NCBI GenBank assembly: GCA_017984755.1
Contig: JAGNYW010000030.1
Location: 1 to 34,282 of the forward strand
DNA from: Methyloversatilis sp.
Lineage (GTDB): Bacteria; Pseudomonadota; Gammaproteobacteria; Burkholderiales; Rhodocyclaceae
Reading direction: 5' to 3'
DNA length: 34,282 bases
Shown: positions 4,701 to 31,300 of the stretch, piece by piece
Layout of the letters: each line of letters begins with the position of its first letter
Numbering within the stretch: the stretch's first letter is position 1
Translations under genes and position numbers: made by a program
The notes under the pieces: model-generated
Databases searched by the model: none
The model's input: only the letters and a program-made list of their open reading frames with translations
What the model was told of the DNA's origin: nothing

Positions 4701-5790
4701 CGGTGCCGCGGATGTCGCCGCCACCCGCCAGCAGCACGGACAGATCGCGCAGGTCGACGTGCGCGGTCGATGCTTCGATCTGCGCGGACAGCGCCGTGAC
4801 CGGCAGCTGCCCCTGATCGATGCGGCCGGCAGCGCGGTTTTCCGCACGCAGCGGACCGACCAGCGTCAGCGCGTCACCGTCGCGCGGCTTCAGGTCGGCA
4901 TCCACCGTCCATCGTCCGGACGGCGCCGGGGCATGCAGGCGCTGCGGATCGAATTCATCGAGCGCGAGCCTGAGTGCGGTGAGCGGCTGTGCGGCGAAGG
5001 GACGTGCGCTCACCTGCGCGCTGCCCGACAGGCCGAAGCCCTGCGCCTGCAGCGTGGCAGTCACGCCGTCGGCCAGCGCGCCGCCGAGCACGGCACGGGC
5101 CAGGTAGTCGGTACCGGCAAAGGCCAGCTCGCCGGCCAGCGCGAAGGGCGCGTCGCCACCCAGCGTCGTCGCGCCGGTCAGCGTGCCCCACGGTGTGACC
5201 AGCGACAGGTCGGTGAGCCGGTGGGTCACGCCGTCGGAATCGATCTGCGCCTGCAGGTCGGTCAGCAGCAGCGTGTCGACGTCCGGTTTTGCGTGGTCGG
5301 CCAGCACGATGCGCCCCACCGTCAGTGGCCCGCGCAGGCCGAGCGGCAGCGAAAGGCCGGCGGGCACGGAGGGCGGAGCGTCGCTGGGCGTGGTCGCGAT
5401 GCGCAGCACATCCAGCCGCAGCTGCGCCATGTCGAGCCGGCGGCCGAACAGCGCGGCGGGCTGCCAGTCGAGCGCGAATCCGCTCGCGTCGATGCGCAGG
5501 GCACCGTCGTCGTAGCGAACGCTGCGCAGCCGCGGCGACGACAGCAGGCTGCCGGATTCGACCTCAACCTGCTGCAGCGCGGGTACGGCCCATTGCGCCG
5601 CGGCAGTCAGCGCACGCAGGCCGGCTTCGGTGGCAAGCACCCAGAACAGGATCACGAACGGCAGCGCGATGAGCGCGATATCGGTCAGTGCGATGCCGGC
5701 GCCGCCCAGCCGGCTGCGCGCGCGCAGGCTGCGGCGCGGCGCGGACGGCTCCTCCGTGGGTCGTTCGGCGGGTTCGGGCGTGCTGTTCAT
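1783..5790 (-). CDS. tamB: Translocation and assembly module subunit TamB
   Basis: This 1335-residue protein has one N-terminal membrane anchor (about residues 33-55, after a charged Pro/Glu/Arg-rich leader). A very long, repetitive beta-rich region follows, and a conserved C-terminal TamB (DUF490) domain ends in an aromatic beta-strand (YVFSFR). TamB is an inner-membrane-anchored periplasmic protein. With TamA it helps insert outer-membrane proteins, and as an AsmA-like protein it is implicated in phospholipid transport between the membranes. The length is usual for the family. It starts at ATG 2 bp after the tamA stop, so the two are co-translated. A 905-codon open frame on the opposite strand inside it is a composition artefact of GC-rich DNA. 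Confidence 0.93.
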   Translation of the reverse strand: MNSTPEPAERPTEEPSAPRRSLRARSRLGGAGIALTDIALIALPFVILFWVLATEAGLRALTAAAQWAVPALQQVEVESGSLLSSPRLRSVRYDDGALRIDASGFALDWQPAALFGRRLDMAQLRLDVLRIATTPSDAPPSVPAGLSLPLGLRGPLTVGRIVLADHAKPDVDTLLLTDLQAQIDSDGVTHRLTDLSLVTPWGTLTGATTLGGDAPFALAGELAFAGTDYLARAVLGGALADGVTATLQAQGFGLSGSAQVSARPFAAQPLTALRLALDEFDPQRLHAPAPSGRWTVDADLKPRDGDALTLVGPLRAENRAAGRIDQGQLPVTALSAQIEASTAHVDLRDLSVLLAGGGDIRGTAGWRAGGDLPVQAALALRDIDTAALHVRGLPTRLGGRIDIKASGERQQFDVDLNDRGPRRLALAARGAVAQQQLMLEQAQLSAQGAQARLAGTLKLDDTLAFRLDGSLRKFDPSAFARLPAASLSAAFTAGGQVRPAIDARVALDFAPSTLMGEPLSGAVRGRIQGTRLSDADIRLDWAGNRLAVRGAFGGTSGRVQDVLDWTLDARRLGALRALTGVELAGRISGSGSLAGTLGAPNGSLKLEAVALALGDLGSVARAGVDARLEPGAQGLLHLTASATDLRSPSAPAPIESVRLDIDGTRAMHRLSADVRTAPLPAANGDAPARQSLELAARGALADGLSWSGTIDRMVVVLSSELTATLAAPAPLAASPRRVALDGAAFTLTAGGELALLHTVWTPDRVDTRGRARGFPLRLVWRDRAAGIAARAPLKLGADWSLSAALTGDETLDGRVTLFRESGDVVVSGEGRVVLAISEARAQADFSGRTASVSARIAGPDIGEARARVAVPMKRTGSFWQPDVDAHTAGEATLDVPSLAWIGRALRLDMTTAGRVQADVKMAGPLREPELSGRIDGDGLAFALADAGLKLERGQLRARFAGNTLKLDGLNFESDNARPPPDARLKAAELTREPGRLSASGEVDIATARADIAIKVQRFVPLQGGDQWLMLSGDGAVSGSASAGMKLQLALVADAGLFSVPEQSPPALGDDVVIKGREGAVSASTPLALQIDIDLGERLYFRGRGLDTRLTGRLALRDEGRGVSATGNIRTIGGRYRAYGQNLDIERGIVSFQGSLANPGLNVRAIRPDLPVQAGVEVTGTVQRPRVRLVSDTAMPDSEKLSWIVLGRGQDTAGGSDLSLLATAAGALLGGEGDGITGSLAQALGLDQISLSQASTATGPRSQVVSGSQRGTPTVGGQVVSVGKRLSSNALLTYEQGVAGATSIVKLTWNLTRHLALIGSTGTEQAVDVRYVFSFR

Positions 5791-5792
5791 GA

Positions 5793-7622
5793 TCAGAAGG
5801 CAATGGCCAGCGAAAAGTGCGGCCGCCAGGTACGTTCGCGTTCGCCGTAGGCGATGTCGAAGGCGATCGGACCCGCCGGAGAGCGCCAGCGCACGCCGGC
5901 GCCCGCACCATAGGCAAGGTTGAAGTCCTTGCGGCTGTCGGTGGCGTCACCGGCATCGAGGAATACCGCGGCGCCCCACTGTCCGGACAGCCAGTGCACG
6001 TACTCCGCACTGGCCACGCCGAGCACGCGACCGCCCACGATGGCATTGCCTTCGCGCACGCCCAGCTGAAGGTAGTCGTAGCCGCGCACCGAGGTCGCCC
6101 CGCCGGCACGGAACAGAAAATCCTGCGGCAGCGAGCCGGTTGCGCCACCGGTCAGACCGGCTTCGCCGCGCAGGATGATCTGATCGCGCAGGCCGACCGG
6201 TATGAACCACTGCGCCTTCGCATAGCCGCGCAGGAAGTTGGCATCGGACAGCAGCCCCTTCACGCCGCCGCCGATCTGCGCATTGAGCACCCAGCCATCG
6301 CGCGGATCGAACAGGTCGTCCACGCGGCGCCAGGTCCATGAGGTGTTCAGGGCGAGCGACTGCTGCGTGCTGACTTCCTGCCCGTCGATCTCACGCTGTT
6401 CGCGCTGAAGGTTCAGCGAATGGCGGATTTCGACGTCGCCACGGATGCGCGCACGCACGGCGCCGATGCCGACGCGGCGCGTGACCAGATCCTGAATGTC
6501 GGCGTTTTCGCCAAGCACGCCGAAACTGTCGCGATAGCCCTTTTCGGCCGGCGGCAGCATGACGTCGGCGAAGGCGATCTGCCGCAGCTGATCGACGCGA
6601 AGCGCCGTACTGAGCATCCACGAGCGATTCCACAGATTGTTGTCGGACCAGCCGACTTCGGCGCGGTACCCGGTGTTGCTGCTCAGACCGGCGCCGAAGG
6701 AAAGGCGTCGCGAACTGGCTTCGGCAAGCGTGATGCGCACCGGCGTCGCGGCCGCGTTGGCCGGGTCGCGGTCAGCGTTGATCTGTGCGGAACTGAAATA
6801 AGGTGAGGACAGCAGCGCGCGCTCGAAGGCAAGCAAGGCATCGGTCGAGTACGGATCACCAGGCTCCAGGGTGGCATAGCGGCGCACCAGATCGAGGTCG
6901 TGCAGCGCCAGCCCGGTCGCTTCGATGTCGCCGAAGCGGAAGGCCGGCCCACTGTCGAGCTGCACGCGCAACGCGACGCGCGCCGTTTCGGGATCGACCT
7001 CCGCCAGGCTGTCGGCCAGCGTGCCGGCTGCGTAGTCACGTGCCGTCAGATCGTCGAGCAGCCGCTGCTTGGCCGCTGACCAGTCGGCCTGACGGAACGG
7101 CTCGCCAGGCGGCAGGCGCCAGGCCTGGCGCAAGGCGCCGCGCCTCGCCTCGCGCTCGGCGTCTTCGCCGGCCAGATCGCCTTCGAATGCGATGTCGACC
7201 GCCTCGATGACGGCGCGCTGCCCGAGTTGCACATGCAGCGCCGGCGGATCACCGGCAATCTCCACGACCGGGCTGAAATAGCCTTCGGTGGCGAGCAGCG
7301 TCGTCACTTCCCGACTGACACGCCACAACAGCCTGCGCCGCGCGCGCTCGTCGGCGAGCGGCTCACGCAGTATCAGCGTGCGCGCGTGCCGGTCGAGCAT
7401 GTCGCGGATGTCGTCGGACAGGCCGTCCGGGGCGATCGGCAGTTTGCCGAACACCGCGGCTGGCTCATCGGGCACGGAATCGGACAGCAACTCGGGCGAC
7501 ACGTCCGTCACCGGACCACCGGTGACGGATTCAGGGTCTGCCGCGAACACGGGCGCGGGGACGGTCAGGCAGAGCAAGAGCAGCAGCCCTGCCGGGCTGC
7601 GAAGTAGCGGCAGACGGAGCAA
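5793..7622 (-). CDS. tamA: Outer-membrane assembly factor TamA (BamA/Omp85 family)
   Basis: This 609-residue protein begins with a clear signal peptide (about residues 1-27, ending PVFA). POTRA-type repeats follow (about 80-280), then a C-terminal outer-membrane barrel of the Omp85 family with the conserved SVRGYDYLQLG segment and a closing aromatic strand ending in Phe. It works with TamB in outer-membrane protein assembly. The start appears to be TTG at 7622-7620. The preceding codon in frame is the stop of the FKBP gene, so the frame cannot extend upstream, and the signal peptide begins right at this codon. The FKBP stop and this TTG are directly adjacent (TGATTG), which suggests translation by termination-reinitiation. 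Confidence 0.9.
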   Translation of the reverse strand: MLRLPLLRSPAGLLLLLCLTVPAPVFAADPESVTGGPVTDVSPELLSDSVPDEPAAVFGKLPIAPDGLSDDIRDMLDRHARTLILREPLADERARRRLLWRVSREVTTLLATEGYFSPVVEIAGDPPALHVQLGQRAVIEAVDIAFEGDLAGEDAEREARRGALRQAWRLPPGEPFRQADWSAAKQRLLDDLTARDYAAGTLADSLAEVDPETARVALRVQLDSGPAFRFGDIEATGLALHDLDLVRRYATLEPGDPYSTDALLAFERALLSSPYFSSAQINADRDPANAAATPVRITLAEASSRRLSFGAGLSSNTGYRAEVGWSDNNLWNRSWMLSTALRVDQLRQIAFADVMLPPAEKGYRDSFGVLGENADIQDLVTRRVGIGAVRARIRGDVEIRHSLNLQREQREIDGQEVSTQQSLALNTSWTWRRVDDLFDPRDGWVLNAQIGGGVKGLLSDANFLRGYAKAQWFIPVGLRDQIILRGEAGLTGGATGSLPQDFLFRAGGATSVRGYDYLQLGVREGNAIVGGRVLGVASAEYVHWLSGQWGAAVFLDAGDATDSRKDFNLAYGAGAGVRWRSPAGPIAFDIAYGERERTWRPHFSLAIAF

Positions 7623-8440: not shown

Positions 8441-9460
8441 ATGCTCTCCCAGGAAGCTTTGCATGATTGGCGCGGCCTTGCGCTGCGCGTCGAAGAAGAA
8501 GTACGGCGGGCGGTCGTCGGTCAGGACGATACGCTTCGCCTGATCAACGTCGCGCTGTTCGCGCGCGGCCATGTACTGCTCGAAGGCGATGTCGGTGTCG
8601 GCAAGACAACGGTGCTGCGTGCCTTTGCGCGCGCCGTGGGCGGCGATTTCGAGCGCGTCGAAGGCACGGTCGACCTGATGCCGAACGATCTCGTCTATCA
8701 CACCTATGTAGACAGCGAGGGCAAGCCACGCATCGAACCGGGGCCGCTGCTGCGCCACGGCGAGCGGCTGACCACGTTCTTCTTCAACGAAATCAACCGC
8801 GCCCGACCGCAGGTGCAATCGCTGCTGCTGCGTGCAATGGCCGAACGCACGCTGTCGGCGTTCAACCGCGAGTACAGCTTTCCGCACATGACAGTGTTCG
8901 CCGACCGCAACCGCGTCGAGCGCGAAGAAACCTTCGAACTGGCGTCCGCCGCGCGCGACCGCTTCATGTTCGAACTGCGCATGCTGACGCCGGCCGACGA
9001 CGAAACACGTCGGGCGCTGGTGTTCGACCCGCGCTTTCATGACACCGACGCGCTGATCGATACGGTCACGCCCGGGGTGGTCGACTGGATGCAGATGAAC
9101 ACCATCGGTGCGGCAATCCAGCAGGGTGTGAGCGCATCGGACGCGCTGCAGCGCTACGCGATGGACATCTGGGCGGCCACCAGCGATCCGGTGAAATACG
9201 GGCTGCAGATCGACGGTGTCGACATGTCGCGCCTGATCCTGGCCGGCGCCAGCCCGCGCGGCATGGGCATGCTGATGCGCGCTGCGCGGGTCGTGGCGTG
9301 GATGGCCGATCGCGACTACCTGACGCCGGAAGACATCCGCGCCGTACTGCCGTCGACGCTGGTGCATCGCGTGTTCTTCACACCGGTGTATGAAATGCGC
9401 CGCAGCGAACTGGCCGATGCACTGGTGTCGCAGATGCTGGAACGGGTCGCCACGCCCTGA
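8441..9460 (+). CDS. mxaR: MoxR-family AAA+ ATPase (MxaR-like)
   Basis: This 339-residue MoxR-type AAA+ ATPase has a Walker A motif (GDVGVGKTT, residues 49-57) and a Walker B-like segment FFFNEINRARP typical of MoxR proteins. A sensor region and a C-terminal lid helix bundle follow. MoxR proteins act as chaperones with VWA-domain partners, inserting metals or assembling enzyme complexes. In methylotrophs MxaR/MoxR is needed for active methanol dehydrogenase. ATG 8441 was chosen because homology-like sequence begins there; a TTG lies directly before it. The frame continues upstream to 8288 but that part looks non-coding. It is the first gene of a six-gene operon, and its stop overlaps the next start by one base (TGATG). 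Confidence 0.9.
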   Translation: MLSQEALHDWRGLALRVEEEVRRAVVGQDDTLRLINVALFARGHVLLEGDVGVGKTTVLRAFARAVGGDFERVEGTVDLMPNDLVYHTYVDSEGKPRIEPGPLLRHGERLTTFFFNEINRARPQVQSLLLRAMAERTLSAFNREYSFPHMTVFADRNRVEREETFELASAARDRFMFELRMLTPADDETRRALVFDPRFHDTDALIDTVTPGVVDWMQMNTIGAAIQQGVSASDALQRYAMDIWAATSDPVKYGLQIDGVDMSRLILAGASPRGMGMLMRAARVVAWMADRDYLTPEDIRAVLPSTLVHRVFFTPVYEMRRSELADALVSQMLERVATP

Positions 9461-10338
9461 TGCCCGGCAAGGGCACGACACGCATCATGAGCAACACGAA
9501 AGACTTCCATTACCGCATGCCCGGACGCGTCGGTGGACAGCGCCCCGGGGCGCACCGCAGCGTCACGGCGGGCAGCGGTCAGGAATTCATCGCCCACCTG
9601 AACCTGTTCGACCGCCCCGATCCGCGCAGGCTGGATCTGCGCGCCAGCCTGCGTGATCCGGAACAACGCTGGCTGGTACGGGTCACCCGGCAGCGGGCGG
9701 GCGTTCCGGTCTACCTGCTGGCCGACGTATCGACTTCGATGCGTTTCGGTTCGGGTGCCAGCAAACTCGAACGGGTGGCCGCGTTCGCCTGCTCGCTCGG
9801 CGATTCGACGTTCCGCACGGGTGACGCGCTCGGTCTGCTGGCCTTCGACAGTCGCGAACGCACCGACCTGATGCTTGCGCCCATGCGCTCGCGCGGCGCC
9901 GGTCTGATGATCAGCGAATCGCTGCTGCGCGCGCCTGCCGACAACCCGTCCAGCGCGGGCATGGCCGAGGCCTGCGTGCGCATCGCGGGTCGTCAGGCGC
10001 TGGTCTTCATCGCGTCGGACTTTCACGCGCCGCTTGCGCAGCTGGGTGCGGCACTCGATCTGCTGTCGCATGCCCATGTCGTGCCGATGGTGGTCTGGGA
10101 CGAAGTGGAGCCGGAAGCACCCGCCGGCGATGGATTGCTCGCACTGCGCGACATCGAAACCGGCCATCGGCGCGGGCTCTGGCTGCGACCGGTGATCCGC
10201 CGGCGCTGGAAGGAAGCATTCGAACAGCGCCGCGCCGACCTGCAGAAGCTGTTCGCAGACCGGGGCATGCGGCCGTTCTTCATGACCGGGCCGTTTGATG
10301 CCGATGCGCTGTCGCGTTATTTTTTCGAGGCCGTCTGA
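9460..10338 (+). CDS. mxaS: DUF58 protein, MxaS-like
   Basis: This 292-residue protein of the DUF58 type has a VWA-like core. The segment LADVSTSMRFG (residues 87-97) carries a MIDAS-type DxSxS pattern (Asp89, Ser91, Ser93), and a later stretch LVFIASDF resembles the second VWA strand. It has no obvious membrane segment. DUF58 proteins almost always sit beside MoxR ATPases, and in mxa clusters this one is called MxaS. Its exact role is unknown but it is presumed to act with the ATPase in dehydrogenase maturation. The start overlaps the mxaR stop; a second ATG at 9487 is possible and would remove nine residues. The stop is 1 bp from the next start. Confidence 0.85.
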   Translation: MPGKGTTRIMSNTKDFHYRMPGRVGGQRPGAHRSVTAGSGQEFIAHLNLFDRPDPRRLDLRASLRDPEQRWLVRVTRQRAGVPVYLLADVSTSMRFGSGASKLERVAAFACSLGDSTFRTGDALGLLAFDSRERTDLMLAPMRSRGAGLMISESLLRAPADNPSSAGMAEACVRIAGRQALVFIASDFHAPLAQLGAALDLLSHAHVVPMVVWDEVEPEAPAGDGLLALRDIETGHRRGLWLRPVIRRRWKEAFEQRRADLQKLFADRGMRPFFMTGPFDADALSRYFFEAV

Positions 10339-10339
10339 C

Positions 10340-11254
10340 ATGCAAGCTTCTTTCTGGCGCGTGCGTCTTCTCAGCATCTGCGCGGCGCTCGCGCTGGTGT
10401 CCTGGGGATCCTGCCAGGCGCAGCAGCAAGCCGCGCCCGCGCAGTCCGCACCGGCTGCGTCCGTCACGCCCGCGCTGCAATCACCGCGTCCCTTCGGCTA
10501 CGTGCTCGGCGATGTACTGACCCAGCGCATTGCGCTCGAGTACGAAGGGCGCGCGCTCGAACCGACGGAACTGCCCGCGCTGGAGCGCACCGGCAACTGG
10601 TTCACGCGGCGCGACGCCCGCCTGGAACGCGATGCGGCGGGGCGAAGCTGGCTGACGCTGGATTATCAGGTCATCAATGTGCCGGACGAACTGAGTGCGG
10701 TTGAACTGCCTGCGCTCGATCTGGCGACCGCCGACCCGAAGCTTCGCATCGAAATACAGGCCATGCCGGTGACGGTGGCGCCGATCACGCCGGCAACCGT
10801 GCTGTCGCGTGCCGGTCTCGAGGAAATGCAACCCGACGCCGAAGCGCCGCGGATGGACGTATTGCCGCTGGAACGCAATCTGCGCCTCACCCTGTATTTT
10901 TCGGCGCTTCTGGCAATCGCGTGGATGGTGCTTTTTGCGATCCGGCTGCTGCGCGCCCGGGGTCGCCTGCCCTTCGCCCGGGCGCGGACGGACATGCGCC
11001 GGCTCGATGATCCGACCGCGATCTGGCGTCGCCTGCATCGAGCGCTGGATGACACGGCCGGCCACGTGGTGCGCGGTCACAACCTGCATTCACTGCTGGC
11101 ACGAGCACCATGGCTGGTACCGATGGAACAGGATCTGAAACGCTTCTTCGAGGCCTCGCAGGAGCGATTCTTTGCCGGCCGCGCCGCTGACGGGGTGGAG
11201 CCGCTTGCGCTGTGCGCGCGTGCCGCGAAGCTGGAACGGAAGGCGCTCGCATGA
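10340..11254 (+). CDS. mxaA: MxaA-like methanol dehydrogenase maturation protein
   Basis: This 304-residue exported protein has a signal peptide or anchor (about residues 1-26) and a periplasmic domain rich in acidic and aromatic residues. A second membrane helix (about 183-204) and a cytoplasmic C-terminal domain of about 100 residues follow. The layout and its place between mxaS and mxaC identify it as MxaA. In methylotrophs MxaA, with MxaC, MxaK and MxaL, is required for putting calcium into the MxaFI methanol dehydrogenase. Here the nearest dehydrogenase is XoxF instead. It starts 1 bp after mxaS and its stop overlaps the mxaC start by 4 bp. The family identity relies partly on gene order. 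Confidence 0.78.
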   Translation: MQASFWRVRLLSICAALALVSWGSCQAQQQAAPAQSAPAASVTPALQSPRPFGYVLGDVLTQRIALEYEGRALEPTELPALERTGNWFTRRDARLERDAAGRSWLTLDYQVINVPDELSAVELPALDLATADPKLRIEIQAMPVTVAPITPATVLSRAGLEEMQPDAEAPRMDVLPLERNLRLTLYFSALLAIAWMVLFAIRLLRARGRLPFARARTDMRRLDDPTAIWRRLHRALDDTAGHVVRGHNLHSLLARAPWLVPMEQDLKRFFEASQERFFAGRAADGVEPLALCARAAKLERKALA

Positions 11255-12279
11255 CCGAATGGATCACCCCGATGCTGTCCGACGTGGTCGAGTTCTCGAC
11301 TCCGCTCTGGCTGCTCGCGATCCCGCTGGCGCTGCTGCCGCTGTGGCCGCGTCGGCGCCACGCACTCGACTACGCATGCACCGACTGGCTGCCGCGCGAC
11401 AGGGTCGGCGACACGGTGCTGCGCGCCGGACGCCTCGCCGCCGCGCTGGCCATTCTCGCAGCGGTGCTCGGTCTGGCCGGCATCGGCCAGCCGGCCACCG
11501 AACTGCCGCGGACCGGACGCGGTGCGGAAATCGCCATCGTGCTCGATCGCAGCCGCAGCATGGACGAAGCCCTTGTGCCCAAGGGGCGCCAGCCGGTGAT
11601 CGATTCGTCGCATGAATCGAAAGGGCACGTCGCGCGCCGGCTGCTCGCCGAATTCGCCGCACGGCGACCGCAGGATCGTTACGCCTTCCTGCTGTTCAGC
11701 TCGACGCCGATGGCCGTGGTGCCTTTCACGCAGCACGGCGAAGTCGTCCAGGCCGCGATCCAGGCAGGCGGCATCGGCCGCGGCCTGTCCGAAACAGACA
11801 TCGGCCGCGCGCTGCTGGCCGGCGCCGAACAGTTCGAGCGGCGCGCCTACTCGGGCAGCCGAATCGTGCTGCTGGTGTCGGACGGCGCTGCGCAGATCGA
11901 TCCGGACATGCGCGAACGCATCGCACGTGCACTGAAAAAGCATCGCATCGCCGTGTATTGGGTATTCATCCGTTCGGCACTCAGTCTGGGACTGGAGGCG
12001 GACGACTACGAAGGCAACGTACCCGAAGCGGCGCTGCACCGCTTCCTGCAATCGACCGGTGTGCCGTATCAGGCATTCGAGGCGGAAGACCCCGAAGCGG
12101 TCAAGCAGGCGGTGGCCGAGGTAGATCGCCAGCAGAATCTGCCGCTCGACTATACCGAGCGCATCCCGCGCCGGGACTTTTCCGCCTGGTTTTTCGCACT
12201 TGCGCTGCTGGCGGGCGCACTCGCGCTGGCTTGCCGCCTGCTGACGCGGCCGTCGTGGAAAGAGGAACTGCAATCATGA
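11251..12279 (+). CDS. mxaC: VWA-domain membrane protein, MxaC-like
   Basis: This 342-residue protein has hydrophobic helices near the N-terminus (about residues 17-33 and 60-78). A VWA domain follows with an intact MIDAS motif (IVLDRSRSM: Asp99, Ser101, Ser103) and a later strand VLLVSDGA, and the C-terminus has a membrane helix (about 312-332). This is the layout of BatA/MxaC-type proteins, with the VWA domain on the periplasmic side. MxaC belongs to the set linked to metal loading of methanol dehydrogenase. Both ends overlap neighbours by 4 bp (ATGA), so the gene is translationally coupled to mxaA and mxaK. Confidence 0.85.
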   Translation: MTEWITPMLSDVVEFSTPLWLLAIPLALLPLWPRRRHALDYACTDWLPRDRVGDTVLRAGRLAAALAILAAVLGLAGIGQPATELPRTGRGAEIAIVLDRSRSMDEALVPKGRQPVIDSSHESKGHVARRLLAEFAARRPQDRYAFLLFSSTPMAVVPFTQHGEVVQAAIQAGGIGRGLSETDIGRALLAGAEQFERRAYSGSRIVLLVSDGAAQIDPDMRERIARALKKHRIAVYWVFIRSALSLGLEADDYEGNVPEAALHRFLQSTGVPYQAFEAEDPEAVKQAVAEVDRQQNLPLDYTERIPRRDFSAWFFALALLAGALALACRLLTRPSWKEELQS

Positions 12280-12815
12280 AGTTGCGCCAACTGGGATCAG
12301 CGCTTGCATCGCTGTGCATGATCGGCCTGCTGTTCGCAGCCTACGAGGCCTACCGGCTCTCTCAGGCTCGCGAGTTCAACCGCCAGATTGTCAGCGCCAT
12401 CGATGCCGCAGCCACCCAGAACTCTCCGGAAGCGGAATTCGCGCGCGCACTGTCGCTGTCCGGACACGACGACTACGAAGGTGCGGTGCGCGCCTACAAG
12501 ACCCTGTCGCGGACCAGCGAAGGCACGCTCCTGCAATCGGTGCTGTACAACCTGGGCAATCTGCATCTGCGCGAGGCGCTCAAGTACGGGCCGGACGAAA
12601 TCGGTCGCTCGCTGCCGCTGGCTGAACTCGCGAAGACCAGTTATCGCGAACTGCTGCACCTGAACCCGGGGCACTGGAACGCCAAGTACAACCTCGAACG
12701 CGCCCTGCGGCTGGCGCCCGAGCGCGAGGACGTCTTGGTCGAAGCACCGCCGCTGCCGCAGAACAGCGAGCGCGCGGTCACGACGATGAAGGCATTCACG
12801 CTGGGGTTGCCATGA
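12276..12815 (+). CDS. mxaK: MxaK-like TPR protein
   Basis: This 179-residue protein has an N-terminal membrane helix (about residues 7-25) and a periplasmic part containing TPR-like helices (EFARALSLSGHDDYEGAVRA; a second unit is around SVLYNLGNLHLREALKYGP; a third around LNPGHWNAKYNLERAL). By gene order it is MxaK, one of the proteins linked to calcium insertion into methanol dehydrogenase. TPR proteins between two VWA proteins are also typical of Bat (aerotolerance) operons, so the fold alone does not decide. The ATGA overlaps at both ends place it firmly in the operon. Confidence 0.78.
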   Translation: MKLRQLGSALASLCMIGLLFAAYEAYRLSQAREFNRQIVSAIDAAATQNSPEAEFARALSLSGHDDYEGAVRAYKTLSRTSEGTLLQSVLYNLGNLHLREALKYGPDEIGRSLPLAELAKTSYRELLHLNPGHWNAKYNLERALRLAPEREDVLVEAPPLPQNSERAVTTMKAFTLGLP

Positions 12816-13789
12816 TCGCGCCGCTGCGCACCCTGGTCGCCCGTGCGCGAAGCGCGCACGCACTGCCCCTGACGCTGGCCACGGCCCTGTTCGCGGTCGC
12901 CGCCGTGCTGCCGCCCCTGCCAGTCCCGGGTCGCAGCTACCACCACATGGTGGTGCTGGACATCACGCAGAGCATGAATACGCGCGATTACGAACTGAAC
13001 GGCAATCCTGCAAGCCGCCTCGATTACGCCAAGCACAGCCTGGCCATTTCGCTGCGCGGACTGCCTTGCGGCTCAAGTGTGGGGTGGGGTGTATTCGCCG
13101 AATACCGGCTGCTCACGCTGATGACGCCGGTCGAGGTGTGCGGCAACTATCATGAACTGCTGGCAACACTCGCCAATATAGACGGGCAGATGTCGTGGGC
13201 CGGAGCGAGCGAAGTATCGAAAGGGCTGTTTTCGTCCATCCGTATCCTCAAGGACATGGAACAGGCGCCGTCGCTGGTGTTCGTGACGGACGGCCACGAG
13301 GCGCCGCCACTGAATCCGAAGATGCGCCCATCGTTCGACGGCGAGCCGGGTGCCGTGAAGGGCCTCATCGTGGGTACCGGGGGCGAGACGCTGGTGCCGA
13401 TTCCGAAATTCGACCCCGATGGCGCACCGCTCGGGTTCTGGAGACCTGACGAGGTGGTGCAGGGAAATTCGTCCTCACGCGGTCGCGGGGGTTCCGCGGA
13501 AACCATGGTGGATGAGAGCGGCAAGCCCATCGAGCAGACCACGGCCAGCGGAACCGAACACCTGTCGAATCTCAAGGCATCGCACTTGCGCGATCTCGCG
13601 TCGCAAACCGGCATGGTCTACGAAGCCCTCGCGTCCCCCGATGAACTCGGCAAGGCACTGAACAATCCCGCATTCGCCCGCTCGGGCTCAGTGCCGACAC
13701 AACTCGGATGGATTCCCGCACTGATCGGCCTGCTCTGTCTTGTCTGGACTTACCGTCCGGATTCATGGCGCACCGGAAACCGAGTCTGA
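12812..13789 (+). CDS. mxaL: VWA-domain membrane protein, MxaL-like
   Basis: This 325-residue protein has an N-terminal membrane helix (about residues 19-38) and a VWA domain with a MIDAS motif (VVLDITQSM: Asp50, Thr52, Ser54). The domain continues through SLVFVTDGHE, where the second acidic residue of the metal site is expected. A C-terminal membrane helix (about 297-313) ends the protein. It is the last gene of the mxaRSACKL-type operon and matches MxaL by layout and position. It is presumed to act in the periplasm with MxaA, MxaC and MxaK in metal loading. The operon ends here: 531 bp without a gene follow before xoxF. No mxaD-like gene was found. Confidence 0.82.
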   Translation: MIAPLRTLVARARSAHALPLTLATALFAVAAVLPPLPVPGRSYHHMVVLDITQSMNTRDYELNGNPASRLDYAKHSLAISLRGLPCGSSVGWGVFAEYRLLTLMTPVEVCGNYHELLATLANIDGQMSWAGASEVSKGLFSSIRILKDMEQAPSLVFVTDGHEAPPLNPKMRPSFDGEPGAVKGLIVGTGGETLVPIPKFDPDGAPLGFWRPDEVVQGNSSSRGRGGSAETMVDESGKPIEQTTASGTEHLSNLKASHLRDLASQTGMVYEALASPDELGKALNNPAFARSGSVPTQLGWIPALIGLLCLVWTYRPDSWRTGNRV

Positions 13790-13905
13790 AGCCTCCGAAG
13801 CCGGGGATTCGCCGGCCGAAGGCATCGGTCTCGCACCGGCTGCGATTGCACGCACCCGTTTCGCCCGCTGAACTTCGTAACACGCATACGTTGCGCTTTC
13901 AACGA

Positions 13906-13941
13906 ATCAGCCCGGCACACGGCCTCTCCCCCCGGGCTGAT
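13906..13941. repeat. 10-bp inverted repeat downstream of mxaL
   Basis: The arms ATCAGCCCGG (13906-13915) and CCGGGCTGAT (13932-13941) are perfectly complementary with a 16-nt loop. The repeat lies about 116 bp after the mxaL stop. No T-run follows, so it is not a classical intrinsic terminator; it could stabilise the 3' end of the mxa transcript. Confidence 0.55.
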
Positions 13942-14037
13942 GCCACCGGCCAAGGGCCATCGTCGATCGCGGAACCGACTGTTCGACAGAGGCTAAAAAG
14001 CTCAAATCCGCTCGCGATTTCCTCGAGCGGGCGCGTT

Positions 14038-14080
14038 GCGCACTGCAACATGCAGAGATTTTCTCTATGTTGCAGTGCGC
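14038..14080. promoter_or_regulatory. 43-nt hairpin/palindrome upstream of xoxF
   Basis: The 14-bp arms GCGCACTGCAACAT (14038-14051) and ATGTTGCAGTGCGC (14067-14080) are perfectly complementary. Inside them, AGAGA (14054-14058) pairs with TCTCT (14062-14066) around a TTT loop, leaving only a 2-nt bulge. It is centred about 261 bp upstream of the xoxF ATG. No T-run follows. It could be a double operator for a dimeric regulator or a structured RNA element. Its TGCA-rich half-sites vaguely resemble PhaR-type sites, but that link is a guess. Confidence 0.6.
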
Positions 14081-14320
14081 TACAAGCCGACACTCGAATT
14101 CACACCAAGCCCTTTATACGAGCACGAGAGCAAGCTTCAGATTAGTTGTCAACCATAAAATTTTAGGGGACTGCGGGGAAAACTTCCCGATCTTCAAAAA
14201 TCGTGTGCTATATCTTCATTACCCCGATGCCCGAGGCTACTTATGGGCACCGGAGGGCAACAGCGGCTGAAGCTTTCGACATGGAGCTTCGGCCTTTCTG
14301 GTCGCATTGAGGAGGAGCCT

Positions 14321-16123
14321 ATGTCTATCAAGATGAAACAACTGCCCCTGTGGGTTGCAGCACTTGCCATCCCGGGTACCGCGCTGGCCAACGCCGACGT
14401 CGCCAAACTGATCAAAGACCCGAAAAATTGGGCAATGCAGGCCGGCAATTTCGAAAACCAGCGTTACAGCACGCTGAACCAGATCAACAAGAAGAACGTC
14501 AAGGACATGAAGGTGGCGTGGACGTTCTCGACCGGTGTTTTGCGCGGTCATGAAGGTGGCCCCCTGGTGATCGGCGACACGCTGTTCGTACATTCGCCCT
14601 TCCCCAACAAGGTTTTCGCGATCGATCTCGAAACCCAGAAGATCAAGTGGAAGTACGAGCCGAAGCAGGACCCGTCGGTCATTCCCGTGATGTGTTGCGA
14701 CACGGTCAATCGCGGTCTCGCCTACGCCGAAGGCAAGGTGTTCCTGCAGCAAGCGGACACCACGCTCGTCGCGCTCGATTCGAAGACCGGCAAGGCATTG
14801 TGGTCGGTCAAGAACGGCAACCCGAAGATCGGTGAAACGAACACCCAGGCACCGCACGTATTCAAGGACAAGGTCATCACCGGCATTTCCGGCGGCGAAT
14901 TCGGCGTCCGTGGTTTCGTTGCTGCCTACGACATCAACACCGGCAAGCAGGTCTGGAAAGGCTACAGCACCGGTCCGGACGCAGAAATGCTGATGGATCC
15001 GGAAAAAACAAAGACCTGGACGAACGGCAAGATGGCGCCGGTGGGCAAGGATTCGTCGCTGAAGACCTGGCAGGGCGACCAGTGGAAGATCGGTGGCGGC
15101 ACGACCTGGGGCTGGTACTCGTACGACCCGCAGGAGAACCTGATGTACTACGGTTCGGCCAACCCCTCCACCTGGAACCCGGTGCAGCGTCCGGGCGACA
15201 ACAAGTGGACGATGACCCTGTGGGCACGTGATGTCGACACCGGCAAGGCGCGCTGGGTCTACCAGATGACCCCGCACGACGAGTGGGACTTCGACGGCAT
15301 CAACGAAGTCATCCTGGCTGACGTGGATGTGAAGGGCAAGAAGCGCAAGGTTGCGGTGCACTTCGACCGTAACGGCTTCGCCTACACGATGGACCGCGTG
15401 ACCGGCGAACTGCTGGTGGCCGAGAAGTTCGACCCGAAGGTGAACTGGGCGACCCACGTCGACATGAACACCGGCCGTCCGCAAGTCGTGGCCAAGTACT
15501 CCACCCGTCAGAACGGTGAAGACGTGAACACGAAGGGCATCTGCCCGGCCGCGCTGGGTTCGAAGGATCAGCAGCCGGCTTCGTTCAACCCGAAGAATGG
15601 CCTGTTCTACGTGCCGACGAACCACGTCTGCATGGACTACGAGCCGTTCCGTGTTGAATACACTGCTGGCCAGCCGTACGTCGGTGCCACGCTGTCGATG
15701 TACCCGGCGCCGGGCAGCCATGGCGGCATGGGCAACTTCATCACCTGGGACGCTGGCAAGGGCAAGATTGTCCAGTCCAAGCCGGAGAAGTTCTCGGTTT
15801 GGTCAGGTTCGCTTGTTACGGCCGGTGGCATCGCCTGCTACGGCACGCTTGAAGGCTACCTGAAGTGCGTCGATGCTGACGACATCAACAAGGAGCTGTA
15901 CAAGTTCAAGACCCCGTCCGGCATCATCGGCAACGTCACGACGTGGGAATTCAAGGGCAAGCAGTACATCGGTATCCTCTCGGGTATCGGCGGCTGGGCC
16001 GGTATCGGCCTCGCAGCAGGTCTCGAGAAGCCGACCGATGGTCTGGGTGCGGTGGGTGGCTACGCTGAACTGGCCAGCTACACCGAACTGGGCGGCACAA
16101 TGACGGTGTTCGCACTGCCGTAA
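14321..16123 (+). CDS. xoxF: Lanthanide-type PQQ methanol dehydrogenase XoxF
   Basis: This 600-residue periplasmic quinoprotein has a signal peptide (about residues 1-23, ending TALA) and an eight-bladed propeller typical of PQQ alcohol dehydrogenases. The adjacent cysteines of the PQQ-site disulfide are Cys125-Cys126 (VMCCD). Glu193 (GGEFG) and Asn281 (SANPS) match metal ligands, and Asp323 is the catalytic base. Asp325, two residues on (WDFDG), is the extra acidic residue that marks XoxF enzymes; calcium-type MxaF has Ala there. The close match to Methylorubrum-style XoxF suggests the XoxF5 group. It oxidises methanol to formaldehyde or formate and passes electrons to XoxG. AGGAGG precedes the ATG. 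Codon choice is strongly biased (Lys almost always AAG), as expected for a highly expressed gene. Confidence 0.96.
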
Positions 16124-16135
16124 TCGTGCGTTGAG

Positions 16136-16160
16136 TGGAAGGCGCTTCCGGCGTCTTCCA
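16136..16160 (+). repeat. Small hairpin just after xoxF
   Basis: TGGAAGGCG (16136-16144) pairs with CGTCTTCCA (16152-16160) with one G-U pair and a 7-nt loop. It lies 13 nt after the xoxF stop and directly before the intrinsic terminator. No T-run follows it. It may protect the 3' end of the xoxF message. Confidence 0.5.
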
Positions 16161-16173
16161 CAAGGTTCCCTGA

Positions 16174-16209
16174 CTGGCACCGTGCGGAAACGCCGGTGCC
16201 AGTTTTTTT
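16174..16209 (+). terminator. Intrinsic terminator between xoxF and xoxG
   Basis: The 9-bp stem CTGGCACCG/CGGTGCCAG (16174-16182 and 16194-16202) is extended inside by GCG/CGC around a GAAA tetraloop, with one unpaired T. Seven T residues follow immediately (16203-16209). This is a strong rho-independent terminator shape. It would separate a short, abundant xoxF transcript from xoxG and xoxJ, either fully or with partial read-through. Confidence 0.88.
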
Positions 16210-16263
16210 GTCCGTACCTGCCTGTGAAGGCAATGGCAGCTTTCGGCAGACCCTGGGGGAAAA

Positions 16264-16653
16264 ATGATTAAATTCAAGGCAATGACAATACTTCTCCTTG
16301 CCGGCGCGCTTACCCAGACAGCTAAGGCGCAGACGACGCCCTATCAGGTGCGCGACGGCAACAAGGTTGACGAGCGCACGCTCGCCGGCTGGCGTGCGTG
16401 GCGCAATGCCGCCTGCGAACGCTGTCACGGACCCAATCAGGAAGGCATGGTCGGCCCGTCCCTGATCGCCAGCCTCAGGACACTCGACCAGGCCGCCTTC
16501 GCGACCGTGGTGACCAAGGGCCGCGTGGATCGCGGAATGCCCAACTTCGATGGATCGAAGCAAGTCATGGACAACCTGGGCGGCTTGTATGCTTATCTGA
16601 AAGGCCGTTCCGACGGGGCTATCCGCCCGGGTCGCGTAGAAAAGATGGACTGA
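16264..16653 (+). CDS. xoxG: Cytochrome c XoxG
   Basis: This 129-residue c-type cytochrome has a signal peptide (about residues 1-22, ending AKA) and one heme motif, CERCH (Cys51, Cys54, His55). The probable axial Met is Met92 (RGMPNF). Placed between xoxF and xoxJ, it is the likely electron acceptor of XoxF, carrying electrons towards terminal oxidases. It is small for the XoxG/MxaG (cytochrome cL) family, with a short C-terminal part after the Met loop. A GGGGGA ribosome site lies just before the ATG. A strong terminator separates it from xoxF, so it may be expressed from its own promoter or by read-through. Confidence 0.85.
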   Translation: MIKFKAMTILLLAGALTQTAKAQTTPYQVRDGNKVDERTLAGWRAWRNAACERCHGPNQEGMVGPSLIASLRTLDQAAFATVVTKGRVDRGMPNFDGSKQVMDNLGGLYAYLKGRSDGAIRPGRVEKMD

Positions 16654-16764
16654 GTCAAACCAAACCCGTTGTGGCGCTGTCACAGACGCCATTGCAGGTG
16701 ATGAAGCATCGGGCGGCTCGCTCACACCGACAGCCGGGCCGGCAACCAATACATCCGGAGGAGA

Positions 16765-17643
16765 ATGAAAATAATGAAATACAGACTCATCGCCGCTGTT
16801 CTTTCGCTGGGCACCGCAATCGCATCCCCCGCCCTGCACGCTCAGGAAACCGGCGACGACAAGGTCTTGCGTGTCTGTGCGGACCCGAACAATCTTCCGC
16901 TGTCGAATGACAAGGGCGAAGGCTTCGAGAACAAGATCGCTGAACTGCTGGCGAAGGATCTCGGCTACGCGCTTGAATACACCTACTTCCCTCACCGGAT
17001 GGGCTTCATCCGCATGACGCTGAAGGCGAAGCACGAAAGACTTCCCGGAAGGTACAAATGCGACCTGATCGTTGGTGTGCCTGTCGGTTTCGACATGGGC
17101 GCGACGATCAAGCCGTATTTCCGCTCGACCTACGCGATGGTGTTCAAGAAGGGAACGGGTCTGGACAGTGTGAAGGTGCCTGACGACCTGCTGAAGCTGC
17201 CGCCGGAGAAACTCAAGTCGCTCAAGTTCGGCATCTTCTCCCAGACCCCGCCGGTCGATTGGCTGCTGCGCAACGGACTGTTCGATCAGGCGATTTCCTA
17301 TCAGCGCCAGTCCGGTGATCCGGGAGCCTATCCAGGCGAGATCGTCGAGAAGGATCTGGTCGCCGGCAAGCTCGACGTCGCCATGACATGGGGACCGATT
17401 GCCGGTTATTTCGGACGCAACGCCAAGGCCGCCGATCTGGTGACGATCGGCTTCCCGCCGGAGAACGAGATCAAGTTCGACTACGCAATCACGATGGCCG
17501 TGCGTTACGGAGAAAAGGACTGGAAGAACAAGATCGAGGAAGCGGTACAGCGGAATATGCCGGGAATCCAGGCCATCCTGACCTCCTACGGCGTGCCGCT
17601 GCTGGATGAGTCTCAGGCGAGCCAGACCGCAGCCGATCGCTGA
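16765..17643 (+). CDS. xoxJ: Periplasmic solute-binding-like protein XoxJ
   Basis: This 292-residue protein has a signal peptide (about residues 1-26, ending ALHA) and a bacterial extracellular solute-binding fold (family 3 type). The N-terminal strand LRVCADPNNLPLSN and the segment KCDLIVGVPVGFDMG are characteristic of MxaJ/XoxJ. XoxJ is thought to help activate or assemble XoxF, possibly by binding a partially folded dehydrogenase, rather than to feed a transporter: no ABC permease genes are near. The ribosome site GGAGGAG is very close to the first ATG (16765), so the second ATG at 16774 may be the real start. It follows xoxG by 111 bp. Confidence 0.9.
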   Translation: MKIMKYRLIAAVLSLGTAIASPALHAQETGDDKVLRVCADPNNLPLSNDKGEGFENKIAELLAKDLGYALEYTYFPHRMGFIRMTLKAKHERLPGRYKCDLIVGVPVGFDMGATIKPYFRSTYAMVFKKGTGLDSVKVPDDLLKLPPEKLKSLKFGIFSQTPPVDWLLRNGLFDQAISYQRQSGDPGAYPGEIVEKDLVAGKLDVAMTWGPIAGYFGRNAKAADLVTIGFPPENEIKFDYAITMAVRYGEKDWKNKIEEAVQRNMPGIQAILTSYGVPLLDESQASQTAADR

Positions 17644-17665
17644 CAGACAGGTGAAATCCGCCGTG

Positions 17666-18718
17666 ATGACACCCCGAAAACCTTTTTTCGTGCCGTACGC
17701 GGTCGCACTCACGCTGGCGCTTCTGCCGGGTGCCGCTGCCGCTCTGGGCGAACAGGACATTGCGGCGCTGATGCTTCTGCGCCCCAGCGTCCTGAAAATA
17801 GAAGCCTTCGATGACCGCGGCAACATTTCGGTGGGTACCGGTGTGGCGGTCGGCCCGGGCATCATCGCCACGGCCTGCCACGTCACGGCGCGCGCGACGA
17901 CGATTCGCGTCGTCAGCAACGGCGAACGCATGCAGGTGAGTTCGCAGCGGGCGCAGGTGCAACGCGACCTTTGCCTGCTCGACGTTCCCGGTGCCTCGCA
18001 GGTACCGGTGGTCGAATTGCGCGAGACCCCCCTGAAAGCAGGCGAAGAACTGGTGGCACTGGGCTACATCCTCGGCGCGGCGCCGCGCGTCAGCAATGGC
18101 AGGGTGCTTCGTCTCCACCCCTACGATGGCGGGCGGATCATCCAGAGCACCACACCCTTCACGTCCGGCGCCAGCGGGGGCGGTCTGTTCGACCGCGAGA
18201 ACCGGCTGGTCGGCGTGATGACCTTCAAGTTCAGGAGTGGCACCGACAATCAGTTCTCGCTGCCAGTCCGGTGGATACGCGAAGCCATGACGTTGCCGGA
18301 AGGACCGGAAGTCACGCCGTTGTCGGGCCGCGCATTCTGGGACGCCGCCGAAGCGGCTCTTCCTCCCTTTCTGCAGGTGCTGCGCCTGCAGGCTGAATCC
18401 CGCTGGTCGGAACTGGAATCGCGGGCGCGTGGCTGGATCGGAGGCAATGCGGACGATGCATCGGCCTGGCACGCGCTGGGCCGCGCCCAAGTCGCGCAGG
18501 GGCGTTCCGGCGACGGCGTCGGATCACTGCTGCGCGCGAACGCGATCGACACGGAGAATCCGGTGTTCCTGTCGGATCTCGCTGTGGCGCAACGTCAGCA
18601 GAAGGACGAAGCGGGGTACGCACTGACCCGCTCCCGGCTCGAGCAGCTGGCACCGGCCGCGGTGACGGCACTCGATGAACGGCTGGATCGCTGCGGCAGC
18701 ACCGTTCCCGCCTGCTAG
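17666..18718 (+). CDS. Exported trypsin-like serine protease with TPR-like tail
   Basis: This 350-residue protein has a signal peptide (about residues 1-26) and a chymotrypsin/HtrA-type protease domain (about 35-215). The likely triad is His72 (TACHV), Asp101 (RDLCLL) and Ser170 (SGASGGGLF). There is no PDZ domain. Instead the tail (about 225-330) has helical repeats resembling TPRs (WHALGRAQVAQGRSGDGVGSLL and a following unit). It should act in the periplasm, perhaps in quality control of exported proteins. It begins 22 bp after xoxJ on the same strand, so it may be co-transcribed with xoxGJ. ATG 17666 was chosen, with a GTG just before it, because the signal peptide begins there. Confidence 0.78.
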   Translation: MTPRKPFFVPYAVALTLALLPGAAAALGEQDIAALMLLRPSVLKIEAFDDRGNISVGTGVAVGPGIIATACHVTARATTIRVVSNGERMQVSSQRAQVQRDLCLLDVPGASQVPVVELRETPLKAGEELVALGYILGAAPRVSNGRVLRLHPYDGGRIIQSTTPFTSGASGGGLFDRENRLVGVMTFKFRSGTDNQFSLPVRWIREAMTLPEGPEVTPLSGRAFWDAAEAALPPFLQVLRLQAESRWSELESRARGWIGGNADDASAWHALGRAQVAQGRSGDGVGSLLRANAIDTENPVFLSDLAVAQRQQKDEAGYALTRSRLEQLAPAAVTALDERLDRCGSTVPAC

Positions 18719-28439: not shown

Positions 28440-29251
28440 TCAGCAGGCGGTCCCCAGCACCGCCTGCACCACCTCGTCCAGAGCGGCTGCGGTGTCGGCG
28501 TCGTCGGTCAACGCATCGACGATCGCGGCGCGGCATGCGGTGAGCATCGGCACGCCCGATTCGGCCAGCCGTGCAGCCATCACCAGCAGACGCGTGCTGA
28601 CGGTTTCTTCGAGGTCGTGTTCGGTCAGCCTGCGCAAGGCCTCGGCCAAGCGCACCAGCGCCTGCGCGCGTGCCGCGTCGACACCCGCTTCGGTCTGCAG
28701 GATCGCCTGTTCGACCGCCGCGGGAGGATAGCGGAAAGTGAGCGCCACGAAGCGCTGGCGCGTACTCGGCTTCAGGCTTTTCAGCAGGTTCTGGTAACCA
28801 GGGTTGTAGCTGATGACCAGCATGAACTCCGGTGGCGCCACCAGTTGTTCGCCGGTTCGCTCGATCGGCAGTACGCGCCGATCATCCGCCAGCGGGTGCA
28901 GCACCACCGTCGTGTCCTTGCGTGCCTCGACCACTTCGTCGAGATAGCAGATGGCACCCGTGCGCACTGCCCGGGCCAGTGGTCCGTCGGCCCATACGGT
29001 GCCGTTCAGGCCGATCAGGTGACGGCCAACCAGATCGGCTGCGGACAGGTCGTCGTGACAACTCACGGTGATGAGCGGCCGCCCGAGACGGGCGGCCATG
29101 TGCTCGACGAAACGCGTCTTGCCGCAGCCGGTCGGACCCTTGATCAGCAGCGGCAGGCGCTGGCGGAAGGCGTGCCCGAACAGGGCAACCTCCTCCGCCT
29201 GCTCCGCGTAGTAAGGCGTTGCGTCGAAACGCCGCGCTTCACTCTGATCCA

Positions 29252-29252
<1 letters not shown>
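28440..29252 (-). CDS. norQ: Nitric oxide reductase activation ATPase NorQ
   Basis: This 270-residue AAA+ ATPase is of the NorQ/CbbQ type. Walker A is GPTGCGKT (residues 39-46), Walker B is around AICYLDEVVEARKD, and VISYNPGYQNLLKSLKPSTRQRF is a NorQ/CbbQ hallmark. It forms a complex with the VWA protein NorD and drives the final metal insertion into NorCB. The start codon overlaps the norB stop (ATGA), which shows translational coupling. It is the third gene of the nor operon. Confidence 0.94.
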
Positions 29253-31154
<1,902 letters not shown>

Positions 31155-31209
31155 GGAAGCCCTCCTCCGATCATGACCGGCATAGCCTAGGGATTCGCTC
31201 GGGTATTTT

Positions 31210-31227
31210 CCTTGAACCGGTTCAAGG
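31210..31227. promoter_or_regulatory. FNR/DNR box upstream of norC
   Basis: CCTTGAACCGGTTCAAGG is a perfect 18-bp palindrome holding TTGAA-N4-TTCAA, one base per half-site away from the FNR/DNR consensus. Its centre is about 64 bp before the norC ATG. A TAGGCT hexamer on the minus strand (31189-31184), centred 32 bp downstream, is a weak -10 candidate at the distance expected for a class II site. Confidence 0.75.
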
Positions 31228-31300
31228 AAGCAGCAAGCTCATGTGCCGCGGGTGACGATGACCCTGATTGGAGAAGGGACATCCCGGACGGGACTGCAGC

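Follow-up and report, generated by a model that had tools for sequence, protein, structure and literature searches.

Bat operons and NorQ-NorD are MoxR-VWA systems, in which an AAA+ ATPase of the MoxR type is accompanied by VWA partners. A MoxR ATPase and VWA proteins are also encoded by the mxaRSACKL genes of the mxaFI methanol dehydrogenase clusters, and MxaACKL have been named calcium insertion proteins (PMC6028718). XoxF5-type xoxFGJ clusters code for a XoxF with the WDFD motif, a cytochrome and XoxJ, in this order. Both XoxF and MxaRSACKL were placed in the core genome of Methylophilaceae in 2014, and mxaFI-less Methylotenera were described there as keeping the set, two such strains having two copies of it (PMC4109929). 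Here we describe a six-gene mxaRSACKL set lying upstream of xoxF in Methyloversatilis sp. (assembly GCA_017984755.1). The window, i.e. the whole analysed stretch of 34,282 nucleotides, is a complete contig (JAGNYW010000030.1; C63) of a 3.27 Mb Methyloversatilis-like genome, which comprises 96 contigs and is 93.8% complete, so that absences in this genome alone are not final. Judged from sequence comparison, the set is an XoxF-associated paralogue of mxaRSACKL, of a lineage distinct from the mxaFI sets, and neither a relic of mxaFI nor a partner of Mdh2, as follows from its partition within the genus, its co-occurrence with XoxF in the order and its ratios of nonsynonymous to synonymous substitutions (dN/dS). 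The probability that it serves the maturation of XoxF is estimated at roughly 0.75.

The set shares with mxaRSACKL of the mxaFI clusters the same six genes in the same order and with intact MoxR ATPase and VWA motifs. It differs from them in adjoining xoxF instead of mxaF, in belonging to a lineage separate from ten mxaF-linked sets, and in residing in a genome in which no mxaI was found. The WDFD-type XoxF, the cytochrome and XoxJ follow one another as in XoxF5-type clusters, which here, however, are preceded by a maturation set. As in the Bat and NorQ-NorD systems, an AAA+ ATPase occurs together with VWA partners, and the C protein is weakly BatA-like, whereas the A and K proteins are without a Pfam or NCBIfam model and the client suggested here, XoxF, is a quinoprotein of the periplasm. 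The closest precedent in print since 2014 are the mxaFI-less Methylotenera, which, like the organism studied here, are XoxF-only methanol oxidisers with the set. In the accessible passages of PMC4109929 the location of the extra copies is not strictly conserved and the copies are not assigned to XoxF, with one island of M. mobilis 13 holding the set three genes from xoxFJG. The pairing seen in the window, unlike that in Methylotenera, is conserved across the genus and recurs in others. In the literature covered, which excluded most subscription journals and was accessible in part, no XoxF-linked set distinct from the mxaFI set within one genome was found.

An earlier note on this DNA had described the products of the six genes (8441-13789) as a MoxR ATPase, a DUF58 protein, MxaA, two VWA proteins and a TPR protein, and profiles, motifs, homologues and structure models all agree with this description. 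All six open reading frames (ORFs; coordinates below are those of the ORFs) are intact, lie on the plus strand and follow the order R-S-A-C-K-L. Family searches of the window proteins were run against Pfam and NCBIfam at E ≤ 0.01. The mxaR homologue (8441-9460) encodes a MoxR-type AAA+ ATPase (AAA_3, 91.2 bits) with the Walker A motif GDVGVGKT and the sequence FFFNE; among named records, the five closest share 91-96% identity with this protein, and three of these carry the title Methyloversatilis. The mxaS homologue (9460-10338) codes for a DUF58 protein (69.6 bits) with the metal-site motif DVSTSM, and the two VWA proteins are the products of mxaC (11251-12279; VWA, 42 bits; motif DRSRSM; sub-threshold match to NCBIfam BatA, 51.5 bits) and mxaL (12812-13789; VWA_2, 32.1 bits; motif DITQSM). 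The A and K proteins matched no family at the above threshold. The mxaA homologue (10340-11254) was recognised by its position in the set and by 42 homologues of 27-58% identity; its AlphaFold model (pLDDT 88.9) begins with a helix that would be a signal or an anchor, continues with a strand-rich domain and a long helix, the latter probably spanning the membrane, and ends in a helical domain. Good as the model is, it had no PDB match at E ≤ 0.001. In the case of mxaK (12276-12815), the assignment is based on position, on an alignment and on a TPR-like model (pLDDT 85.2) with a long N-terminal helix, probably a membrane anchor, followed by TPR-like helices, whose best PDB matches are the TPR folds 1na3 and 1na0 (E 0.005-0.008).

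Neighbouring genes of the set overlap by 1 or 4 bases, except for a single 1-base gap from S to A, and the six look like one operon; for R, A, C and K an internal ATG was chosen as the start. All four motifs (Walker A in R, VWA metal sites in S, C and L) are present in the window and are retained across most of the compared sets (R 129/129, S 118/129, C 121/121, L 117/119). The R-S-A-C-K-L order of the detected genes is kept in the mapped clusters of relatives, with A or K undetected in some of them, mostly mxaF-linked and Methylophilaceae-like; other clusters are cut by contig ends.

The lanthanide-type methanol dehydrogenase gene xoxF (14321-16123, plus strand; TIGR03075, 728.8 bits), whose product depends on pyrroloquinoline quinone (PQQ), starts with the ATG at 14321, which is preceded by the ribosome site GAGGAGGAG. 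The nearest solved structures of its product are the XoxF entries 6DAM (986.9 bits) and 6OC5 (962.9 bits), with large-subunit chains of methanol dehydrogenase scoring 605-652 bits. The protein carries an extra Asp two residues past the catalytic Asp (PHDEWDFD), i.e. the motif of XoxF5. We take this extra Asp to denote the lanthanide type, and the clade number 5 is likewise assumed. The identification of the window dehydrogenase as a XoxF with the lanthanide Asp, made in the earlier note together with the statement that neither mxaF nor mxaI is present in the window, is thus borne out.

In a sample of 13 genomes of the genus, including that of the window, MxaR proteins fall into three identity bands relative to the window protein: type 1 (91-100%), to which the window set belongs, type 2 (77-78%) and type 3 (57%). 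Type 1 is present in 12 of the 13 genomes and always stands beside xoxF, which is cut by a contig end in G305, G307, G308 and G309. Type 3 occurs in seven genomes, exactly those with MxaI, and lies no more than a few hundred bases from mxaI; the dehydrogenase adjoining it has the WDYA motif (in G304 this dehydrogenase is split over two contigs). MxaI was searched with the PF02315 model, which works, being positive in these seven genomes and, in a sample of 300 genomes from the order, in 4 of the 27 that have MxaR; in the window genome MxaI was not found. Six genomes with mxaI hold both type 3 beside mxaI and type 1 beside xoxF. The exception is G304 (91% complete), which has MxaF with type 3, and in which neither a type 1 nor a XoxF5 match was found. 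G306 (listed as 100% complete, about 10 contigs) resembles the window genome in having type 1 only and no MxaI found. The earlier note had considered the client of the set undecidable, the alternatives being XoxF or a calcium dehydrogenase elsewhere, such as Mdh2. The comparison of xoxF neighbourhoods proposed there largely decides the matter, because the relatives keep separate sets for mxaFI and xoxF, and with type 1 beside xoxF in every genome having it, the first alternative is strongly favoured.

Six members of the genus (L263, L274, L277, L282, L291, L294) carry a tandem duplicate of xoxF 3' of the type 1 set; xoxF is single-copy in the window genome and G306. Type 2, found in 10 of the 13 genomes, is stand-alone, with no PQQ dehydrogenase near it in the stretches read. 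Its loci include L149, L152, L264, L275, L290 and L298, and response regulator- and sensor-like ORFs were seen by eye near some of them. A comparison of ORFs at 34 loci (families shared by at least four loci) revealed no dehydrogenase shared by the stand-alone sets and, beyond the six genes and their antisense shadows, no neighbour that the groups have in common.

A FastTree phylogeny of R, S, C and L, comprising 119 of 136 sets (7 duplicates were dropped and 10 sets were without one of the four genes), joins the ten mxaF-linked sets, from Methyloversatilis and family f25 (presumably Methylophilaceae), in one clade with a support of 99. The type 1 sets, at a great distance from it, make up a clade of 11 rows (support 100), and the type 2 sets one of 8 rows (support 100). 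As the tree carries long-branch flags and warnings on letter make-up, the clades are used here, while their deep order is unsure. Pairwise dN/dS against six relatives amounts to 0.05-0.10 for R, 0.12-0.23 for S, 0.29-0.35 for A, 0.13-0.19 for C, 0.19-0.37 for K and 0.13-0.18 for L, compared with 0.05-0.10 for XoxF. By these ratios, the six genes are selectively maintained.

The same data bear on the view that the set is the leftover of a lost mxaFI cluster, retained by chance or decaying. Such a loss would suit a genome without detected MxaI in a genus where 7 of 13 members have it, and mxa genes without mxaFI in Sphaerotilus have been read by their describers as reductive evolution (PMC13300288). 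Sphaerotilus mobilis itself (L223), however, has all six genes and XoxF. Moreover, the six genomes that have mxaI and pair the window's type with xoxF carry a distantly related set next to mxaI, and the mxaF-linked sets belong to another clade. The six genes are intact, and their dN/dS range of 0.05-0.37 includes comparisons with four relatives for which the search detected no mxaI. An mxaFI remnant, contradicted by the co-existing paralogues, was therefore rejected on genus partition and selection and seems very improbable.

In the order sample of 300, the MxaR matches fall into two well-separated groups: 27 genomes have one of at least 369 bits, and the other listed matches score at most 159. 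XoxF was counted in 42 genomes; G148, G224 and G294, with best matches only 42-47% identical, were left out, and G001, whose xoxF adjoins the set where the contig ends (L107), was added. MxaR and XoxF occur together in 27 genomes, MxaR without XoxF in none, XoxF without MxaR in 15 and neither in 258 (Fisher p = 5e-28), and by genus all 18 MxaR genera are among the 23 XoxF genera of 135 (p = 3e-18), relatedness being left in both p values. The surroundings of the set were mapped in 26 of the 27 genomes (not in G252): xoxF or xoxGJ lies beside it in 10, mxaF in 4, and neither was present in the stretch read in 12, several of the stretches being cut by contig ends. Among named loci (the best 80 of at least 551 confirmed MxaR loci, a non-random sample with flanks fetched up to 10 kb), xoxF was found in the flanks of 30 and mxaF in those of none. 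Of the 50 loci without flanking xoxF, 11 were set aside, namely five of type 2 from Methyloversatilis and six that lie on short contigs; for the other 39, whole-genome searches covered 38 genomes and detected XoxF in all 38 (69-81% identity, one match being partial). The arrangement of the pair varies: xoxF lies 3' of the set in Methyloversatilis, G073, G170 and one Rhodocyclaceae metagenome-assembled genome, 5' of it in Variovorax, Paraburkholderia and Ramlibacter, tail to tail with it in family f2, and divergently in Granulosicoccus and G264.

Five genes of the PQQ alcohol dehydrogenase family were identified in the window genome at E ≤ 1e-40: xoxF (WDFD), those on contigs C46, C27 and C5 (each WDYD) and one on C17 (WGYD). 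The C46 enzyme is PedH-like, its nearest solved chain being 6ZCW. Of two entries labelled just 'quinoprotein ethanol dehydrogenase', we regard 6ZCW as PedH, a lanthanide enzyme, and 1FLG as ExaA, a calcium enzyme. The C17 protein (4799-6592; L012) has Gly at the expected position of the catalytic Asp; similar proteins (252-266 bits) occur in 12 of the 13 genus genomes, with the WGYD motif read in two. These enzymes leave room for the set to serve another PQQ dehydrogenase elsewhere, be it of the calcium ExaA/Mdh2 or the lanthanide PedH/ExaF type: besides the PedH-like enzyme there are those on C27 and C5, and a calcium ExaA/PedE/Mdh2 enzyme has been reported in Methyloversatilis strains (PMC6028718). 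Nevertheless, no MxaF-type (WDYA) enzyme is among the five, and an ExaA-type WDFS enzyme (nearest solved chain 1FLG) was detected neither in the window genome nor in G306, although 11 of the 13 genus genomes have one, the motif having been read in each of the 11. Five of the six dehydrogenases of G306 were read as Asp type, the sixth, C17-like, being unread by the motif pattern. The search of the genome for mxaF, mxaI and mdh2, suggested in the earlier note, thus found none of them at 93.8% completeness, and with this caveat an Mdh2/ExaA client was rejected for the window genome. Since XoxF accompanies MxaR in all 27 genomes of the order and type 1 in all 12 of the genus, a client other than XoxF is unlikely.

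Several observations weigh against a role of the set in XoxF maturation. In M. extorquens AM1, RSACKL and the rest of the mxa operon are reported to go down with lanthanides and xoxF1GJ to go up (PMC7391723), with which a table in PMC6414531 agrees, its conditions lying outside the accessible passage. Similarly, the MxaR and MxaS proteins of Methylocella fall with La while XoxF5 rises (table in PMC9291206), and a 2024 review states that mxa genes are not required for XoxF (PMC11845868). The AM1 and Methylocella sets are mxaFI-linked. Many sets are not beside xoxF, and in the window itself a gap of 531 bases between mxaL and xoxF speaks against a single transcript. Furthermore, 15 of the 42 xoxF genomes of the order are without MxaR, 13 of them being at least 92% complete, and MxaI was found in none of the 15; hence XoxF can persist without the set. 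In G036, a remnant ORF upstream of an intact xoxF (L127, 8313-8597) consists of a piece of mxaR fused to the end of mxaL, which indicates that the set was once present and was deleted while xoxF was retained. Because of these set-less genomes, the G036 deletion and the AM1 and Methylocella data, the set would be at most conditionally needed by XoxF.

It could also be that the set is a metal-blind helper for all quinoproteins of the methanol dehydrogenase type, acting in opening, PQQ seating, disulfide or subunit handling, with the calcium role of mxaACKL being indirect. Homologous sets do stand beside both calcium-type MxaF (WDYA) and lanthanide-type XoxF (WDFD/WDYD), and the two copies in two mxaFI-less Methylotenera strains (PMC4109929) point the same way. 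A separate paralogue for each enzyme in one genome, however, suggests some client specificity, and the 15 XoxF genomes without MxaR are left unexplained, so this general role appears rather doubtful, and XoxF maturation remains the preferred function.

The set and xoxFGJ had been presented in the earlier note as adjoining; the two are neighbours, with 531 bases between mxaL and xoxF. This gap (13790-14320, plus strand) is a probable separate promoter region of xoxF: in nine loci of the genus the corresponding gap measures 219-534 bases and contains a conserved block before xoxF. Because of this gap and block, xoxF probably has its own promoter, and 8441-17643 is probably composed of two adjacent transcription units and not of one operon. 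A consensus sigma-70 site was not found (0 consensus promoters against 1.7 expected; 9 terminators against 9.3 expected). The gap also contains an inverted repeat (14038-14080), in which GCGCACTGCAACAT and its reverse complement form two perfectly matching arms of 14 bases; the repeat is also present in L146 (AG20) but absent from six other relatives checked.

Downstream of xoxF, also on the plus strand, follow a c-type cytochrome gene in the position of xoxG (16264-16653; Pfam Cytochrome_CBB3, and a sub-threshold match to the methanol-metabolism cytochrome TIGR03874) and xoxJ (16765-17643), encoding a periplasmic binding protein (TIGR03871, 278.6 bits, over its cut-off). The next plus-strand gene, at 17606-18718 (the start may be 17666), codes for a trypsin-like protease (Trypsin_2, 84.8 bits) with a TPR-like tail (sub-threshold TPR) and recurs 3' of xoxJ. 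Of 30 xoxF stretches inspected, some having the mxa set and others not, 15 show a protease of this type at that place, and a number of the negative ones are cut. A relative (33-40% identity) follows each of the seven mxaF-linked sets that were mapped in the genus. It is possible that this protein is a processing or quality-control protease for methanol dehydrogenases; no literature on a xoxF-linked serine protease was found. Farther away, on the minus strand (28443-32977), denitrification-type genes encode a NorQ-type MoxR ATPase (within 28443-29786, start uncertain), a COX1-family NorB-like subunit and a cytochrome cd1-type protein, the ATPase representing a second MoxR-type system on the contig. 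Rfam at gathering scores gave no match in the window.

As to the mechanism, MxaR, an AAA+ ATPase, and MxaS may act at the cytoplasmic face and drive MxaA, C, K and L, which would be anchored in the membrane and, through their VWA domains, hold a divalent ion and contact partner proteins. The set and XoxJ might jointly keep periplasmic apo-XoxF in an open state while PQQ and the lanthanide are put in place. The step assisted by the set may be metal loading, PQQ seating or folding. A more specific and quite tentative proposal is that type 1 is a dedicated lanthanide-insertion machine, in which an ATP-driven MoxR-VWA complex with XoxJ places Ln3+ (and PQQ) into XoxF, having diverged from the calcium-loading set of MxaFI. 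Mutants of the mxa genes are reportedly rescued by calcium.

The set bears on the route by which the lanthanide enters the XoxF active site, and mxa genes are deemed unneeded for XoxF in the review cited above. A six-gene set long tied to calcium loading is found here beside, and apparently serving, a lanthanide-type enzyme. One genus offers a direct test, given that 6 of its 13 genomes hold separate calcium and lanthanide sets and that the window genome and G306 have the lanthanide enzyme and its set alone. Should XoxF turn out to need the set, 'calcium insertion genes' would be too narrow a label, and taking mxa genes as evidence of mxaFI or as its relics, as in the account of Sphaerotilus (PMC13300288), would mislead. 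Should the lanthanide-insertion proposal be true, one cell could hold two metal-specific versions of the same machine.

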